This document shows positions 1 through 6,832 of a stretch of DNA of 6,832 bases, piece after piece. The notes under the pieces are model-generated. The model saw only the letters and a program-made list of their open reading frames with translations, was not told the origin of the DNA and made no database searches. The DNA is from Deltaproteobacteria bacterium (GTDB lineage: Bacteria; JAUYMQ01), in contig JAUYMQ010000325.1 in the NCBI GenBank assembly GCA_030698575.1, positions 1-6,832 on the forward strand, read 5' to 3'. Made by a program: the position numbers and the translations under genes. The stretch's first letter is position 1; each line of letters opens with the position of its first letter.

Positions 1-57
1 CCGGGACGGATCCACGAGGTCATCCGCAACGTTCTGCTCAAGGGGAGGACCGCATGA
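1..57 (+). CDS. C-terminal end of an upstream gene, probably 2-oxoacid:ferredoxin oxidoreductase alpha subunit (partial)
   Basis: An open frame runs from the first base to a TGA at 55-57 and encodes 18 residues ending in VLLKGRTA. The reading GRIHEVIRNVL resembles the short helical tail that closes many KorA/VorB-type alpha subunits, but it is too short to identify alone. The call rests mainly on context: the stop overlaps the ATG of a KorB-type beta subunit in an ATGA arrangement, and alpha and beta genes of this enzyme class are normally adjacent in that order. The alpha subunit would carry the pyrimidine-binding part of the thiamine diphosphate site and, in many members, a fused gamma domain; none of that is inside the window. 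The reading frame and stop are seen directly; the identity is inferred. Confidence 0.6.
   Translation, partial: PGRIHEVIRNVLLKGRTA
41..48 (+). promoter_or_regulatory. Ribosome binding site for the beta-subunit gene
   Basis: AGGGGAGG lies five bases before the ATG at 54, inside the end of the upstream gene. It is a strong Shine-Dalgarno match at a usable spacing and supports the 54 start. Together with the ATGA overlap it suggests coupled translation of the alpha and beta subunits. Confidence 0.7.
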
Positions 58-1007
58 GGGGAAACAGCTGCTCGCTGCTTACGGCAGGACAGGACGAGGA
101 GCACGAGTACGGCCTGCAGGATTACGCCAGCGCCACGCCGCGATGGTGCCCAGGCTGCGGGGACCACGGCATTCTCACCGGCGTGCAGCGAGTGCTGGAG
201 GCCGAGCAGCTTCCGCCGGAACAGACCGTCTTCGTGTCGGGAATCGGCTGCGCGAGCCGGCTGCCGCATTACGTGAAGACCTACGGGTTCCACGGCATAC
301 ACGGCCGGGCGCTGCCGGTCGCGACCGGCATCAAGCTCCATCGCCCCGAACTGAATGTCTTCGTGGTCATGGGCGACGGCGACTGCTGTTCTATCGGCGC
401 CGGCCACTGGATCCACGCGATCCGGTACAATATCGACATGGTGGTCCTGTTGCTCGACAACGAGATCTACGGCCTCACCAAGAACCAGACGTCGCCCACG
501 ACGCCGCAGGGCTTCCCGAGCAACACCCAGCCGCGCGGAAGCTACCTGCCCCCCCTGAATCCGCTCGTGACGACTCTGGGCGTCAGCAACGCCTCCTTCG
601 TGGCCCAGACCGCCGATTGGGCGCCGGCCCATGTCTTCGAGGTCATCCGCGCGGCTTACCGGCACCCCGGCTTCGCCTTCGTCCGGATCCTTCAGCGCTG
701 CCCGCAATACACGACCGCGATCTTCGACTCGGCCGTCCGTGATCCGTCCCTCGTGGAGATGCTCGTCCACGAGAACGGAGTGATCGTTCCGGAGCTGCAA
801 GGCATCTACAAGAACCAGCGGCGGCACGATCCCTCAAACCTCGATCAGGCCCGCAGGCTTGCCGAGGATGTTGAACCTGTGCGCCTGGGAATCTTCTACC
901 GGAACGAGGACCGGCCACGGTACGAAGAGACGCGCCACGTGCCGCCGCACTCGGTCGAGGATCGCTTGAGGCTCCTCAACAAGGAGTTCGATCGCCATGC
1001 CCTTTGA
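54..1007 (+). CDS. korB: 2-oxoacid:ferredoxin oxidoreductase, beta subunit (KorB type, thiamine diphosphate-binding)
   Basis: This is the beta subunit of a heteromeric 2-oxoacid:ferredoxin oxidoreductase, which interconverts a 2-oxoacid plus CoA with acyl-CoA and CO2 using ferredoxin. It is 317 residues, normal to slightly long for the family. Visible motifs are WCPGCG (31-36), GIGCASR (63-69), HGRALPVATGIK (about 83-94), GDGD (107-110) and NEIYGLT (136-142); the last two form the Mg-thiamine diphosphate site. C32, C35, C66 and C216 have nearly the spacing of the four [4Fe-4S] ligands known in archaeal two-subunit enzymes of this class, so one cluster is predicted. The pattern is most like 2-oxoglutarate-type KorB, but the substrate cannot be proven from the beta chain. 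The ATG overlaps the upstream stop and is the only good start before the WCPGCG motif. No signal peptide or membrane segment is seen, so it should be cytoplasmic. The final 60 or so residues are charged and lie beyond the conserved core. Confidence 0.93.
   Translation: MRGNSCSLLTAGQDEEHEYGLQDYASATPRWCPGCGDHGILTGVQRVLEAEQLPPEQTVFVSGIGCASRLPHYVKTYGFHGIHGRALPVATGIKLHRPELNVFVVMGDGDCCSIGAGHWIHAIRYNIDMVVLLLDNEIYGLTKNQTSPTTPQGFPSNTQPRGSYLPPLNPLVTTLGVSNASFVAQTADWAPAHVFEVIRAAYRHPGFAFVRILQRCPQYTTAIFDSAVRDPSLVEMLVHENGVIVPELQGIYKNQRRHDPSNLDQARRLAEDVEPVRLGIFYRNEDRPRYEETRHVPPHSVEDRLRLLNKEFDRHAL
981..986 (+). promoter_or_regulatory. Ribosome binding site for the unknown 338-residue gene
   Basis: AAGGAG lies ten bases before the ATG at 997, within the last codons of the beta-subunit gene. 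It supports a start at 997 with an 11-base gene overlap. The spacing is slightly long but workable. Confidence 0.55.
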
Positions 1008-2013
1008 CCCCGAGCGTCTCGATGCCGTCCGGGAAGCCCTGGGCGGGCTCTGGACTGACTACAGGTCGGCGGCCGCCGCCGCGGCGGACGAGGTTGAGGG
1101 AATGCTACGCGCGGCGCGGACTGCCGCGGAGGATGACCGGGGGCCGGCCTTCGCCGCGACGCTCGGGTACCTCGGGGCCGCGCACATCGACGTCGAATCG
1201 CTCGCGCCGCTGTTCGACGCCGAAGCGGCGCTCCCCCCGCCTGCGCTCAATGCAATGGAGGCGGCGGCCGCGGTGCTGCGCGAAATCGCCTGCGAGCCCG
1301 ATCCGACCCCGGTGGATCTGCCCCCCGGCGGCAGCCTGACAGACGCCGTCGGACACGCGCTGGCGCGTGTCGGGCGCGCCTTCGGCGCCGCCCATGTCGT
1401 GGCGCTCGCGCGCGCGGGGCGTTTCGACCGGAACGAGCACGGCCCCTGGCTCAAGGCCTATCCATTCTCCCGCTGGTCGCGGCGTGAGCGCCGGCTGGCG
1501 CCTCCGCTCCTGGTGACGCTCGAAGGAGCCGACCTGCGCGCCGGCGGCCTCACGGAATTTCTCGACGGCGCGATCAAACTTGTTCTGATCGTGCGAGACG
1601 ACGCGGCCCCCCCTGCCCCGCTCGTGCGTCTCGTCTCCCCGGGCGTGTATCTGGCGCAGACACACGACGGCGCCGCGCTCGCGCGGCTCGGCGGATGGTC
1701 CGGTCCCGGCGTGGTGGCATGGGTGCCCGAGGGCAGCGCCGCCTTTGTTCACGATCCCGCCGCGGGCCCGGCCCTCGGCGCGCGCATCCAGGTGATCTCC
1801 GAACCGCCGCCCCCCCGCCGCGGTCTCGGCGGACTCAGCGCCGCACAGCTGGCCGACGAGCTGCGCCAGCTCGAGGCGCTCGCGGGTACGGCAACGCTCG
1901 GCGAGCAGCCCGCCCCCTCCGGCACCGATAAAGAAAACCCCGTGGACCGGCTTGCCGCATGGATCCTGAGCCAAGCAAGCGCGGACGACGCCGCGGCACA
2001 GGCCGAACCATGA
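997..2013 (+). CDS. Uncharacterised soluble protein encoded within the oxidoreductase operon
   Basis: I do not recognise this 338-residue protein. Residues 1-100 are Ala- and acid-rich and look helical, with an Ala run at 25-30. Residues 130-225 look like the folded and most family-like part: FDRNEHGPWL (143-152), FSRWSRRERRLAPPLL (157-172), then alternating hydrophobic stretches such as KLVLIVR (194-200) and PLVRLVSPGVYLAQ (208-221). A Pro-rich segment (269-274) leads to a short helix (281-296) and a low-complexity tail. There is a single Cys (C99), so it cannot itself bind a [4Fe-4S] cluster, and no membrane segment or signal peptide is evident. It overlaps the beta-subunit gene by 11 bases and its stop is shared with the RnfB-like start, so it is almost surely co-translated with redox proteins. 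An assembly, docking or electron-transfer partner role is only a guess from context. Codon and base composition match its neighbours. Confidence 0.85.
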   Translation: MPFDPERLDAVREALGGLWTDYRSAAAAAADEVEGMLRAARTAAEDDRGPAFAATLGYLGAAHIDVESLAPLFDAEAALPPPALNAMEAAAAVLREIACEPDPTPVDLPPGGSLTDAVGHALARVGRAFGAAHVVALARAGRFDRNEHGPWLKAYPFSRWSRRERRLAPPLLVTLEGADLRAGGLTEFLDGAIKLVLIVRDDAAPPAPLVRLVSPGVYLAQTHDGAALARLGGWSGPGVVAWVPEGSAAFVHDPAAGPALGARIQVISEPPPPRRGLGGLSAAQLADELRQLEALAGTATLGEQPAPSGTDKENPVDRLAAWILSQASADDAAAQAEP

Positions 2014-2858
2014 ACCCCGGCGACTTCTTGCTCTCCGCTGGTATCCTGGGCGGAGTGGGGCTGGGGTTTGCCCTCCTGATCGCCCTTGCACACCGCCGGT
2101 TCTACGTCTGGGAGGATCCCCGGCTCGAGGCCGTGTCGCAGATGCTGCCGGGCAACAACTGCGGCGCATGCGGGTTCCCCGGGTGCCGCGGGTTCGCCGA
2201 GGAACTGGTGACGGGGAAGACGAGCCCGGCGACCTGTACAGTCATGAGTGCCGACCAGCGCGAGGAGGTTGCGGAATTAATGGGCGTCGAGGTCGGCACG
2301 GCGGCCTTGCGGGTGGCGCGGCTGCTCTGCGCCGGCGGGCGGGACGAGGCGGTCCGCCGCGCCGAATATGTGGGCCTCCAGACCTGCGCCGCCGCGGCGG
2401 CCGTGTCGGCGGGCGGGAGGGGGTGCACCTGGGGCTGCCTGGGCCTGGGCGATTGCGCGCGGGTTTGCATCTTCGACGCAATCTGGATGAGCGACAACGG
2501 GCTCCCGGTCGTGGAGCCGGAGCTCTGCACGGCCTGCGGCGATTGCGTGGAGGCGTGCCCGAAAGATCTATTCATCCTGATGCCGGCAGAGCAGAACCTG
2601 CTGGTGCAGTGCCGGAACCTGCTGGATGGGGAGCCGGCCACCGACGTCTGCCGGGTCGCCTGCAACACCTGCCGGCGCTGCGAGGCGGACGCCCCGGGGC
2701 TCATCACGATTCGCGATGGCCTCGCGGTGATCGATTACGATCGTTACGATCTGGCGAGCCCCGCCGCGGCGGCCCGCTGCCCGACGGGGGCCATCGTGTG
2801 GCTCGAGGGCCGGCAGTTCCCCGAGGCTTCAATACAGCTGGAGAAGGCGGCATCATGA
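2010..2858 (+). CDS. RnfB-like membrane-anchored iron-sulfur protein
   Basis: This 282-residue protein resembles RnfB, the ferredoxin-accepting subunit of the Rnf membrane complex. One hydrophobic segment (about 7-27) anchors it. Next is an Fe-S domain with C51, C54, C59 and C76 (GNNCGACGFPGC). A 2x[4Fe-4S] domain has C139, C143, C149 and C153 in the RnfB-typical CTWGCLGLGDCARVC pattern, then C173, C176, C179 and C183. A second ferredoxin-like domain (about 214-263) keeps C218, C221, C224 and C257, but the other expected Cys are replaced, so its clusters are probably lost or altered. The ATG at 2010 is chosen over one at 1959 because it forms an ATGA overlap with the upstream stop and puts the anchor at the N-terminus; no clear Shine-Dalgarno precedes it, so coupling is likely. 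No other rnf gene is in view. It probably relays electrons between ferredoxin, the flanking oxidoreductases and the membrane (inference). Confidence 0.88.
   Translation: MNPGDFLLSAGILGGVGLGFALLIALAHRRFYVWEDPRLEAVSQMLPGNNCGACGFPGCRGFAEELVTGKTSPATCTVMSADQREEVAELMGVEVGTAALRVARLLCAGGRDEAVRRAEYVGLQTCAAAAAVSAGGRGCTWGCLGLGDCARVCIFDAIWMSDNGLPVVEPELCTACGDCVEACPKDLFILMPAEQNLLVQCRNLLDGEPATDVCRVACNTCRRCEADAPGLITIRDGLAVIDYDRYDLASPAAAARCPTGAIVWLEGRQFPEASIQLEKAAS
2840..2847 (+). promoter_or_regulatory. Ribosome binding site for the PFOR-type gene
   Basis: GGAGAAGG ends seven bases before the ATG at 2855 and lies in the last codons of the RnfB-like gene. With the ATGA overlap at 2855-2858 it fixes the start of the long downstream frame. 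Confidence 0.7.
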
Positions 2859-5800
2859 AGTTCGGACGGCTAAAGAGCGAGTCTGCGGCGCCCCCCCGCT
2901 TCCCGGGCGTACCGTCGGCGGTCGACGGCAGCGAGGCCGTCGTCGCGATGGAGACGGCCGCGAGCGAAGCGGCGGGCGCGTACCCGATCACGCCCTCGAC
3001 CCAGATGGGCGAAGGCTGGGCCGCCGCCGTCGCCCAGGGCAAGCTGAACGTCAATGGGAGGCGGCTCCTCTTCTTCGAGCCGGAGGGAGAGCACGCCGCC
3101 GCGGCCGTTACGGCCGGCATGAGCATGGTGGGACTCCGGGCGACGAATTTCTCGAGCGGTCAGGGCATTGCCTACATGCACGAGTCGCTCTATGCGGCGG
3201 TGGGCAAGCGCCTCACCTACGTGCTGAACGTCGCCTGCAGGGCCATGACCAAGCACGCGCTGAACGTCCACGCCGGCCATGACGATTACCACGCCGTGGA
3301 CGATACGGGGTTCTTCCAGCTCTTCGCGAAGAACGTGCAGGAGATCGCCGATCTCAACCTCATCGCCCACCGCGTGGCCGAACTGTCGCTCAATCCCGGA
3401 ATATGCGCGCAGGACGGATTCCTGACGAGCCACGTGATCGAGTCGATCGTCCTGCCGGAGCCCGATCTCGTCAAGGCCTTCCTCGGAGATCCCGCCGACC
3501 TGATCGACTCGCCGACTTCGTCCCAGAAGATGGTTTTCGGCGCGAGGCGCCGCCGCATTCCCGAGATGTTCGATCTCGACTATCCGGCGATGCTGGGGGT
3601 GGTCCAGAACCAGGACAGTTATGCCCAGGGCGTCGCGGCCCAGCGGCCCTTCTACTTCGATCACATCGTCGAGCTGACAGAACGTGCTTTCGACGAGTAC
3701 GCCGCGCTCACCGGCCGCCGCTACACCCGCGCCAGCGGCTACCGGATCGAGGACGCCGAGTACGTCATTGTGGGGCAGGGCTCTATCGTCTGGAACGCGG
3801 AAGCCGTCTGCGACTACCTGCGCGATACCAAAAAGCTGCGCGTCGGCGTCGTAAACCTGACGATGTTCCGGCCCTTCCCCAGCGATCTCCTGGCGTCCCT
3901 GTTGCGCGGGAAGAAAGCCGTCACGGTGCTGGAGCGCGTGGATCAGCCGCTCGCGGCCGACGCGCCGCTGCTCAGGGAGATCCGGGTCGCGCTCGCGAAG
4001 GCGGTCGAGAACGGGCGGGCCCGGGGCACCGTGCCCCACGCCGGGGTACCGCCACTCCGGTCCGAGGAAGTGCCCGATTTCTACTCCGGCTGCTTCGGCC
4101 TCGGCAGCCGTGACGTCCAGGCCGGTGAGCTGGTCGCCGCGGTGGAAAACATGCTCCCCGGGGGCAAGCAGCGGCGCCAGTTCTACCTGGGCATCGACTT
4201 CGTGCGGCCGGGCACGCAACTGCCCAAGCTCGAGATCTGGCAGCAAGAGCTGCTGGCCGCCTACCCGCACCTGCCCGACCTTTCGATTCACGCCGGCGAG
4301 GACGTCAATCTGCTCCCGAAGAGATCGGTGGCGATCCGAATCCATTCGGTCGGCGGCTGGGGCGCGATCACGATGGGCAAGAACCTCGCCCTCACCGCCT
4401 CGGAGCTGCTCGGACTGCACATCAAGGCCAATCCGAAGTACGGATCGGAGAAGAAGGGCCAGCCCACCACCTTCTACGCCACGCTGGCGCCCGAGGCGAT
4501 CCGCATCAACGCCGAACTGCGCCACGTCGACGTCGTGCTCTCGCCCGATCCCAACGTCTTCCGCCACTCCGACCCGATTGCCGGCCTGGCGGACGGTGGC
4601 GTCTTTGTGCTTCAGAGCGAACGGGGCCCGGAGGAAGTGTGGAAGAACCTACCCCCGGCGACGCAAAGGCAGATCCGGGCGCGAAACATCCGCATCTTCA
4701 TGATCGACGGCTTCAAGATCGCCGCCGCGGAGGCCTCCGAGGCCGAGCACCGGTTCCGGATGCAGGGCGCGGCTTTCATGGGGGCCTTCTTCCGCGCCTC
4801 TCCACTGCTTGACGGGAGCGGGCTCGACGAGGCCCGGCTCTTCGAGGGCATCCGGAAACAGCTCGCGAAGAAATTCGGGCGCCTGGGCGAGCGGGTGGTG
4901 GAGGACAACCTCCGGGTCATCCGCCGCGGATACGAGGAATTGCAGGAGGTGGACTACGCCGCGCTGCCCGACAGCCGGGCCGAGCTGGGCTCGTTGCCCG
5001 TGATGCCCACGGAGCTCGACGCCAGCCACATGGCCCCGGGCATCGGGAACGCCGGACGGTTCTGGGAGCAGGTCGGGTTTCTCTACCGGACCGGCGAGGA
5101 CGGCATTGCCGATCCCTTCGCCGCGATCAGCGCCATCCCGGCCGCGACCAGCACGATCCGCGACATGACCGACATGCGGTTCGAGGTGCCGGAGTTCATC
5201 GCGGAGAATTGCACCGGCTGCGGACGTTGCTGGGTGCAGTGCCCCGACGCCGCCATCCCGGGGCTCGTGAACAGCATCGAGCAGCTTCTGGAGGCCGCCG
5301 TGGCGCAGCACGCCGACGGGAGGACCTTCGAGCGGATCCGCCCCGTGCTCCGGCCCCTCGCGCGCGAGGCCCAGCGCCTGCTGGCGGGGCCCACACGAAA
5401 CATCCCCGCGGCGCTCAGCGAGGCCTACACGGGCGTCGTGGAGCGCATGGGGATGGATCCCGAACGCCGCGCCGCCACCGACGCCGAGTTCGCGGTGATC
5501 CACGCCGCACTCGCCGATTTCCCGCTCGCCAAGACCGGGCCTTTCTTCGAGGTGCCGGAATCGAAGGAGAAGGGGAGCGGCGGCCTGCTCTCGATCACCG
5601 TCAACCCGGAGGCATGCAAGGGGTGCAACATCTGCGTCGAGGTCTGTCCCGACGGCGCGCTGATCACGGTCAAGCAGGACGAGGCGATCGTCGATCGGCT
5701 GCGGACCAACTGGGCCCTCTGGGAGCGCCTGCCCGACACTGACGACCGTTACGTGAATGTGCTGGACCTGGAGGAGGGCATCGGGGTTCTCAGCTCACTC

Positions 5801-6832
5801 CTCCTTAAGAAGGAAAGCTATCGCTCGATGTTCGGTGGCGACGCGGCGTGCATGGGCTGCGGCGAGAAGACGGCCATTCACCTCGTCTTCTCGGCGGTGA
5901 ACGCGCTCATGGGCCCGCGCGTGGCCCGTCAAGTGGTGCATCTCGATGATCTGATTGCCCGGCTGGACCGCAACGCCCGCGAGCTGCTCTCGGCCGACGC
6001 CGATCTCGAGAACCTCGATCAGCTCGACCTCGACAAGGCTGCCGTTCCGCTCGCGCCGGAGAAACGGGCGAAGGTCGACCAGCTGGCGCGGATGCTCCAC
6101 GACCTGAAGGATCTTCACTGGCGCTACATCGAGGGGCCCAGCGGCAAGGGGCGGGCGACGCTGGCCATCGCCAACTCGACGGGCTGCTCGTCGGTCTGGG
6201 GAAGCACCTATCCCTACAACCCCTACCCGTTCCCGTGGGTCAATCACCTGTTTCAGGACGCGCCCTCGATCGCCATCGGCATCTTCGAAGGGCAGATGCG
6301 GAAGATGGCCGACGGATTCATCGCGGTCCGCCGGGCTGAGCTGGAGCTGGCGGGCGAGTATGACCCCGAGGAGCACGAGCCGTTCTTCGAACGCTTCGAC
6401 TGGAGGCAGTTCACCGACGATGAGTTCGGCCTGTGTCCGCCGATCTTCGCGGTGGGGGGCGACGGTGCGATGCTCGACATCGGGTTCCAGAATCTCTCGC
6501 GCCTGCTGGCCTCGGGCAAGCCGATCCGGGTGGTTGTGCTCGACACGCAGGTGTATTCGAACACCGGCGGGCAGGCCTGCACGAGCGGATTCACCGGGCA
6601 GGTGTCGGACATGGCGGCCTGGGGCAATGCCCAGCACGGCAAGGAGGAGACCCGCAAAGAGCTCGCGCTGCTGGTCATGGCGCACCGGAACGCCTACGTC
6701 CTGCAGGGTTCGCAGGCCAACCCCTCCCATCTGCTGGCGGGCGTCATCCGCGGCCTCAAGGCGCGGCGCCCGGCGGTTTTCTCGCTCCACTGCCCCTGTC
6801 CGCCCGAGCATGGGCTGGCCGACGACGCGGCC
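2855..6832 (+). CDS. Single-chain pyruvate:ferredoxin oxidoreductase-type enzyme, unusually long, 3' end beyond the window
   Basis: The frame is open for 1326 codons to the last base. It follows the PFOR/NifJ domain order: domain I (about 24-250) with YPITPS (43-48), E79 and CRAMTKHAL (128-136); domain II (about 264-400) with YVIVGQGS (303-310) and FRPFP (338-342), then YSGCFGLGSRD near 410-420; gamma domain (about 490-720) with GGWGAITMGKN (500-510); a diverged EKR-like segment (763-785); ferredoxin motifs C786/789/792/796 and C921/924/927/931; and a thiamine diphosphate domain with CMGCGE (999-1004), TGCSS (1109-1113), GGDG (1201-1204) and YSNTGGQ (1234-1240). By analogy with Desulfovibrio africanus PFOR, T46, R129 and N1236 would bind the 2-oxoacid, E79 would contact the cofactor, and C999, C1002, C1111 and C1315 would hold the proximal cluster. 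Typical PFORs are about 1170-1200 residues; this one is already longer, owing to segments inserted at about 800-905 and 1005-1105. Pyruvate is the default substrate but is not proven. Three [4Fe-4S] clusters are predicted; it is cytoplasmic. Confidence 0.93.
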   Translation, partial: MKFGRLKSESAAPPRFPGVPSAVDGSEAVVAMETAASEAAGAYPITPSTQMGEGWAAAVAQGKLNVNGRRLLFFEPEGEHAAAAVTAGMSMVGLRATNFSSGQGIAYMHESLYAAVGKRLTYVLNVACRAMTKHALNVHAGHDDYHAVDDTGFFQLFAKNVQEIADLNLIAHRVAELSLNPGICAQDGFLTSHVIESIVLPEPDLVKAFLGDPADLIDSPTSSQKMVFGARRRRIPEMFDLDYPAMLGVVQNQDSYAQGVAAQRPFYFDHIVELTERAFDEYAALTGRRYTRASGYRIEDAEYVIVGQGSIVWNAEAVCDYLRDTKKLRVGVVNLTMFRPFPSDLLASLLRGKKAVTVLERVDQPLAADAPLLREIRVALAKAVENGRARGTVPHAGVPPLRSEEVPDFYSGCFGLGSRDVQAGELVAAVENMLPGGKQRRQFYLGIDFVRPGTQLPKLEIWQQELLAAYPHLPDLSIHAGEDVNLLPKRSVAIRIHSVGGWGAITMGKNLALTASELLGLHIKANPKYGSEKKGQPTTFYATLAPEAIRINAELRHVDVVLSPDPNVFRHSDPIAGLADGGVFVLQSERGPEEVWKNLPPATQRQIRARNIRIFMIDGFKIAAAEASEAEHRFRMQGAAFMGAFFRASPLLDGSGLDEARLFEGIRKQLAKKFGRLGERVVEDNLRVIRRGYEELQEVDYAALPDSRAELGSLPVMPTELDASHMAPGIGNAGRFWEQVGFLYRTGEDGIADPFAAISAIPAATSTIRDMTDMRFEVPEFIAENCTGCGRCWVQCPDAAIPGLVNSIEQLLEAAVAQHADGRTFERIRPVLRPLAREAQRLLAGPTRNIPAALSEAYTGVVERMGMDPERRAATDAEFAVIHAALADFPLAKTGPFFEVPESKEKGSGGLLSITVNPEACKGCNICVEVCPDGALITVKQDEAIVDRLRTNWALWERLPDTDDRYVNVLDLEEGIGVLSSLLLKKESYRSMFGGDAACMGCGEKTAIHLVFSAVNALMGPRVARQVVHLDDLIARLDRNARELLSADADLENLDQLDLDKAAVPLAPEKRAKVDQLARMLHDLKDLHWRYIEGPSGKGRATLAIANSTGCSSVWGSTYPYNPYPFPWVNHLFQDAPSIAIGIFEGQMRKMADGFIAVRRAELELAGEYDPEEHEPFFERFDWRQFTDDEFGLCPPIFAVGGDGAMLDIGFQNLSRLLASGKPIRVVVLDTQVYSNTGGQACTSGFTGQVSDMAAWGNAQHGKEETRKELALLVMAHRNAYVLQGSQANPSHLLAGVIRGLKARRPAVFSLHCPCPPEHGLADDAA

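Follow-up and report, generated by a model that had tools for sequence, protein, structure and literature searches.

What joins two different 2-oxoacid:ferredoxin oxidoreductases (OFORs), a membrane-anchored ferredoxin-like protein and a protein of no recognised family in a single chain of overlapping genes? The question is raised by a 6832-bp stretch of DNA from a Deltaproteobacteria bacterium (the window), which is the whole of one contig (G000:C322) and whose ends are both cut inside a longer operon. All five of its genes lie on the + strand and each overlaps the next, by 4, 11, 4 and 4 nt in turn. The first-pass annotation had described this chain accurately, as the end of korA, a complete korB, a gene for a 338-aa protein, an RnfB gene and one for a single-chain pyruvate:ferredoxin oxidoreductase (PFOR), with every junction overlapping. 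Comparison with related loci indicates that the window probably accounts for the half of an Rnf complex through which electrons enter, with OFORs built in, the operon as a whole then being an ion-pumping 2-oxoacid:NAD+ oxidoreductase.

Scanning GTDB genomes with the PFOR yielded 80 loci at 55-79% identity, the nearest related cluster (79%) being that of a Gemmatimonadetes metagenome-assembled genome (MAG). The phylum labels of the loci, taken as deposited, are mostly Gemmatimonadota and also include Rokubacteria, Planctomycetota, Deltaproteobacteria, Gammaproteobacteria (Lysobacterales, Halieaceae), Hydrogenedentota, Calditrichota, KSB1, Acidobacteria and others. From gene calls and homology we distinguished an architecture A, with the order korA-korB-HYP-rnfB-PFOR-rnfC-rnfD-rnfG-rnfE-rnfA, often followed by apbE, where HYP denotes the 338-aa protein. 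Architecture B, rnfB-PFOR-rnfCDGEA, is without korAB and HYP (labels Hydrogenedentota, Calditrichota, KSB1 and Acidobacteria), and no conserved genes were seen upstream of its rnfB. Across the loci the upstream neighbour of the PFOR is rnfB in 74 of 75 and the downstream neighbour rnfC in 60 of 62, with junctions that are mostly overlaps or short gaps. The gene order recurs in scores of genomes, far beyond chance; its suspected conservation across distant taxa is borne out by loci from many phylum labels, and with 80 of them the set is no peculiarity of one strain. Furthermore, PFOR and RnfC distances correlate with r = 0.90 (a value given without a null expectation), which is consistent with inheritance as a unit; KorA distance correlations were unreliable owing to a broken gene call in L053. 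Taken at the level of sequence, these data support the view of korAB-HYP-rnfB-PFOR as a conserved, co-inherited redox module.

Some loci depart from this picture. In L102 (9503-17036) several unrelated genes lie between PFOR and rnfC, and in L080 (6962-8245, Dehalococcoidia label) neither an rnfB was called 5' nor an rnfC 3' of the PFOR. On a 2.96-Mb contig of G241 (L133 and L134) the operon is broken inside the PFOR into two parts separated by about 800 kb, one with korB and rnfB and the other with the PFOR C-terminus and rnfC to rnfA, through either misassembly or a real rearrangement.

The surroundings of the window within its own bin were reconstructed from contig-end overlaps with a few strain differences. 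At the 5' end, the window and contig C533 share an overlap of 244 bp (96%). Window positions 1-57 (+ strand) hold the last 18 codons of korA, the fused gamma-alpha subunit, and translate to PGRIHEVIRNVLLKGRTA followed by the stop; this end is letter-identical to the C-terminus of the 622-aa KorA on C533 (18 residues, L041:188-2056, - strand). At the 3' end, contig C400 overlaps by 76 bp at 99% and supplies the last 354 aa of the PFOR, followed by rnfC, rnfD and a partial RnfG-like open reading frame (ORF). The RnfC (ORF 1143-2468 of C400) matches Complex1_51K with 166.5 bits and RnfC_N with 107.8 bits, and the RnfD scores 334 bits. Finally, an RnfE/RnfA-type tandem pair (PF02508) is found on contig C244.

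The window's rnfB (2010-2858, + strand) encodes 282 aa and passes the TIGR01944 rnfB cut-off (71.7 versus 68.7 bits). It comprises a membrane helix, read from the sequence as a hydrophobic N-terminal stretch, the FeS domain PF04060 (47.9 bits) and ferredoxin-like Fe-S domains. Together with an RnfC bearing the flavin mononucleotide/NADH domain (Complex1_51K), with RnfD, G, E and A, and with the full rnfCDGEA set in related loci, this identifies the protein as the predicted electron-input subunit of an Rnf complex for which the operon holds the complete gene set. The earlier proposal of a co-produced module with a shared membrane relay therefore holds as regards the conserved, co-inherited set; the relay belongs to this complete Rnf as its RnfB subunit and is no stray RnfB-like protein.

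The PFOR gene (2855-6832, + strand) runs off the contig after the first 1326 of 1680 residues. Its product shows the domain order POR_N, PFOR_II, POR, two Fer4 and TPP (thiamine pyrophosphate) domains of a PFOR-type enzyme, and the sequence joined across the window and C400 is intact at YPITP, the Glu, the Arg, GDG, YSNTGG, the four proximal-cluster cysteines and both Fer4 motifs. In domain order, catalytic and proximal-cluster residues and the two Fer4 clusters it resembles the single-chain PFORs of Desulfovibrio africanus (1b0p/7plm) and Moorella thermoacetica (6cin), and in a fold search the C-terminal half of the homologue in L044 matched 6cin with Z 32. However, at 1680 aa versus about 1200 aa in the classical PFOR it is some 450 residues longer, with insertions around the Fer4 region and a C-terminal extension, and its truncated 1326-aa part reaches 394.9 bits, short of the TIGR02176 equivalog cut-off of 911 bits. 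The extension, encoded on C400, is a [4Fe-4S] ferredoxin domain (PF13370) preceded by an Ala/Pro-rich linker. AlphaFold2 (AF2) modelling of the L044 homologue gives a disordered linker, with a predicted local distance difference test (pLDDT) score under 50 over model residues 779-837, and a C-terminus that overlays ferredoxin I of D. africanus (1fxr) with a template-modelling score of 0.84 by target and a root-mean-square deviation of 0.9 Å. The assignment as a PFOR-type enzyme thus stands as to domain order, and the protein is best described as a long, divergent PFOR to which a ferredoxin is fused, with pyruvate as its likely substrate.

The fused domain follows the rnf context. It is present in 65 of 66 rnf-embedded PFORs judged complete, and missing in each of the six stand-alone long relatives examined, none of which has rnf neighbours (L037, L038 and L124-L127). 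These stand-alone proteins, four of them from Gemmatimonadota (L124-L127), measure 1517-1581 aa and are about 39-41% identical to the window PFOR. Among 298 sampled genomes of L044's phylum (Gemmatimonadetes label), 63 gave a strong PFOR match, four of which reach only 39-41% and are all of the stand-alone form. In L039 and L040 (G031 and G048) two adjacent ORFs, of 660 + 525 and 659 + 511 aa, encode the long PFOR, which may naturally consist of two subunits there.

The second oxidoreductase is encoded upstream. The korB gene (54-1007, + strand) overlaps korA by 4 nt (ATGA) and encodes the 317-aa catalytic beta subunit, with matches to TPP_enzyme_C (PF02775, 95 bits) and PFO_beta_C (PF12367, 32 bits). 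Its cluster cysteines C32, C35, C66 and C216 and the TPP/Mg motif GDGD...N136 are intact, residues that mark a beta subunit with a TPP site and one [4Fe-4S] cluster; moreover, all 62 aligned KorB sequences from the clusters have the four cysteines, D108, D110 and N136. The beta subunit, its four cluster cysteines and its TPP motif are shared with the 2-oxoglutarate:ferredoxin oxidoreductase of Magnetococcus (6n2n) and the Sulfolobus enzymes (5b46-5b48), and the gamma-alpha fusion of KorA presumably corresponds to that of these two-subunit KorAB (6n2n; 5b46-5b48). The cluster KorAB differs from them in being encoded in an rnf operon together with HYP, and KorB falls slightly below the TIGR02177 PorB_KorB cut-off (245.3 versus 261.9 bits). 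A second KorAB pair, whose KorB is 38% identical, lies outside the rnf cluster in the same genome (L043, G000:C500).

The strongest indication that KorAB, PFOR and Rnf may work as one system comes from lineages in which the PFOR has degenerated. In a third arrangement, architecture C, found in G073 and its relatives, whose phylum we infer to be Calditrichota, the order is korA-korB-X-rnfB-PFOR*-rnfCDGEA. Both Fer4 motifs survive in PFOR*, but its TPP glutamate and the asparagine that binds Mg2+ are lost, as is the whole set of four proximal-cluster cysteines; most copies have lost the GDG aspartate too. The protein X occupies the slot of HYP; it is a PFOR-derived pseudo-enzyme of 820-1437 aa where complete and carries a C-terminal ferredoxin domain, so that in Calditrichota this domain has moved from the PFOR to a second pseudo-PFOR. 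TPP residues are also lost within architecture A: L106, L107 and L118 (Lysobacterales label) bear E77A and/or N1228A, and L120 (Rokubacteria label) has lost the YPITP region, the Asn and all proximal cysteines. All three lineages keep both Fer4 motifs. In the PFOR tree B and C form clades, and L120 and the Lysobacterales trio fall inside clades of intact PFORs, which makes the catalytic losses look independent. A dead PFOR with preserved Fer4 clusters next to a KorB intact in every aligned copy is what would be expected if KorAB uses the PFOR as a wire, and the pattern fits the retention of the degraded PFOR as an electron conduit for KorAB.

In the Calditrichota loci L147-L158 and L036 the two dead PFOR-like proteins, X and PFOR*, stand beside an intact KorAB in a parallel rnf operon. 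Architectures B and C occur together in two genomes (G430 and G433); in G430 the dead-PFOR rnf operon shares a contig with an rnf operon bearing a live PFOR.

The 338-aa protein (HYP; 997-2013, + strand), which overlaps korB by 11 nt, had been left as unrecognised, and indeed no match was found in Pfam or NCBIfam. A profile built from 55 homologues and the window copy nevertheless matches the TPP-domain region of PFOR-like proteins (hmmsearch, best E 2e-7), and profile-profile alignment with the C-terminal half of PFOR (hhalign) covers 150 columns at E 3.6e-5 and a probability of 71.5%. A plain Foldseek search with its AF2 model (pLDDT 89.7) gave nothing significant. In a second-look structural alignment, on which the placement rests together with the sequence profiles, the best neighbour was domain VI of the M. 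thermoacetica PFOR (6ciq 811-1170, Z 8.8), and further OFOR beta subunits ranked near the top. Each of these lines is moderate and all are mutually consistent with a relationship to the OFOR TPP domain in sequence profile and fold. The active-site features are gone: GDG has become EGA, the YSNTGG region is lost and there are zero conserved cysteines. We therefore read HYP as a degenerate copy of PFOR domain VI, TPP-less and cluster-less, that would be kept as a structural part, probably as a pseudo-subunit or adaptor.

From operon content and order, domain make-up and the loss or retention of motifs, all read directly from sequence, a mechanism can be proposed in which the physical association, the electron path, its direction and the substrates are inferred. 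KorAB and PFOR would each oxidise a 2-oxoacid with coenzyme A, the likely substrates being 2-oxoglutarate and pyruvate. Electrons from the PFOR reaction would pass from the proximal cluster through the two Fer4 clusters to the tethered ferredoxin domain, and those from KorB would leave its single cluster for the same domain, hung on the PFOR's flexible Ala/Pro-rich linker. The tethered ferredoxin would then dock on RnfB and hand over its electrons, which would cross the membrane part (RnfA/E, G and D), reach RnfC and reduce NAD+ as Na+ or H+ is pumped. HYP, derived from the PFOR TPP domain and catalytically dead, would probably dock KorAB to PFOR/RnfB. The system should be reversible in principle, NADH and the ion gradient then driving reductive carboxylation. 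Whether all of these proteins, KorAB, PFOR, HYP and Rnf, assemble into a single supercomplex on the membrane, with a swinging ferredoxin that collects from two enzymes and a PFOR that in several lineages serves KorAB alone as a non-catalytic scaffold, we regard as an evenly balanced question.

How far does such a system differ from those described? A PFOR wired to pyridine nucleotide without free ferredoxin has a counterpart in the pyruvate:NADP+ oxidoreductase of Euglena, which differs in being a soluble flavodoxin-reductase fusion with no ion pump. The Rnf of Acetobacterium woodii is a Na+/H+-translocating ferredoxin:NAD+ oxidoreductase in which RnfB provides the ferredoxin site and RnfC is the NAD(H) subunit (PMC11889175). 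RnfB, C, D, G, E and A are all encoded in the operon of related genomes, and ion pumping is predicted here; known Rnf takes its electrons from soluble ferredoxin, whereas here a ferredoxin-fused PFOR lies between rnfB and rnfC, with KorAB and a pseudo-TPP subunit upstream. The rnfBCDGEA genes of Caldithrix abyssi (Cabys_3129-3134) share the subunit order B-C-D-G-E-A, but their locus tags are consecutive, korAB is lacking and B is not separated from C by a PFOR (PMC5317091). Rnf has also been reported in Rokubacteria MAGs (PMC6064768), a group label shared with L048, L049 and L120, and the genes are likely the same; the relevant passages of that paper name the Rnf complex only, with no PFOR or KOR integration. 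In the literature searched, which mostly excludes subscription journals so that absence is no proof, we found no description of an rnf operon that includes PFOR or KOR genes, of such a ferredoxin-fused PFOR or of pseudo-PFOR subunits, and within that coverage the cluster appears to be a new variant of Rnf.

Physiology was surveyed in 24 carrier genomes. Heme-copper oxidase was found in 23 and nifH in none. Hence the host bacteria possess an enzyme of aerobic respiration, and supplying nitrogenase is not the module's role. E1_dh matches occur in all 24, about 20 of them with an E1 whose open frame spans 900 aa or more, the size of 2-oxoglutarate dehydrogenase (OGDH; judged by size only). Given the oxidase and these large E1 proteins, the module is not simply an anaerobic replacement, and, on the same E1 counts, a role as substitute for missing pyruvate dehydrogenase or OGDH is not general. 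In the window's own bin, which is 91.6% complete, no E1 of OGDH size was found. Most of the 24 carriers have one full-strength RnfC match.

Another possibility is that the same module runs mainly in reverse, NADH and the ion-motive force feeding electrons through Rnf and the tethered ferredoxin to make pyruvate from acetyl-CoA (PFOR) and 2-oxoglutarate from succinyl-CoA (KorAB), as anaplerosis in aerobes. Backward operation of Rnf is known (PMC11889175), dehydrogenase-type E1 enzymes already serve the oxidative direction in these oxidase-bearing carriers, and isocitrate lyase is above the cut-off in only 7 of the 24, so that acetyl-CoA assimilation needs another route in the other 17. Yet carriers possessing isocitrate lyase retain the module too, the NAD side of RnfC is compatible with both directions, and of the markers of CO2 fixation and anaplerosis the searches covered isocitrate lyase and nifH. 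We consider a mainly reductive role unlikely, though a serious contender.

A plain co-regulated operon, in which KorAB, PFOR and Rnf remain separate and are linked by diffusible ferredoxin, with HYP as an assembly factor, seems improbable. KorAB works via soluble ferredoxin. Rnf, too, is known to work in this way (PMC11889175). Such an arrangement leaves unexplained, however, why the fused ferredoxin was found only in the rnf-embedded PFORs examined, why a dead PFOR is kept with intact wires and why HYP and X derive from PFOR. That the operon supplies a nitrogenase or other low-potential reductase with 2-oxoacid electrons, as Rnf does for nitrogenase in Azotobacter (review PMC12174285), is very improbable given the absence of nifH from all 24 carriers surveyed. 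An assembly artefact, in which binning or chimeric contigs joined unrelated genes, might be suspected because the window is a short contig, one of 653 in a bin with 4.6% contamination, but is refuted by the recurrence of the order in numerous assemblies made independently, some of them with megabase contigs (L128, L129, L131), and has next to no probability.

Several points weigh against an Rnf with built-in oxidoreductases. The evidence consists of MAG sequences throughout; co-transcription is no proof of a complex, and KorAB could use soluble ferredoxin. The local reconstruction joins three contigs via ends that differ between strains (96% and 99%), and two of 62 loci (L080 and L102) have no rnfC directly 3' of the PFOR. 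The structural match of HYP (Z 8.8) is just modestly above unrelated rows. Finally, most carriers also have a dehydrogenase-type E1, which leaves the advantage of the module in aerobes unexplained, and the 17 carriers without isocitrate lyase above cut-off leave room for the carboxylating direction.

Pyruvate and 2-oxoglutarate dehydrogenases leave the gap from about -500 mV to NAD+ (-320 mV) unconserved. If the operon does encode an Rnf with built-in oxidoreductases, the oxidation of pyruvate and 2-oxoglutarate would become an ion-pumping step in bacteria with heme-copper oxidases. Such a directly coupled Rnf, needing no free ferredoxin, would be present in about one fifth of the sampled Gemmatimonadota genomes (63 of 298) as well as in other groups, and the lineages with live and dead PFORs would offer a natural test of how enzymes turn into scaffolds.

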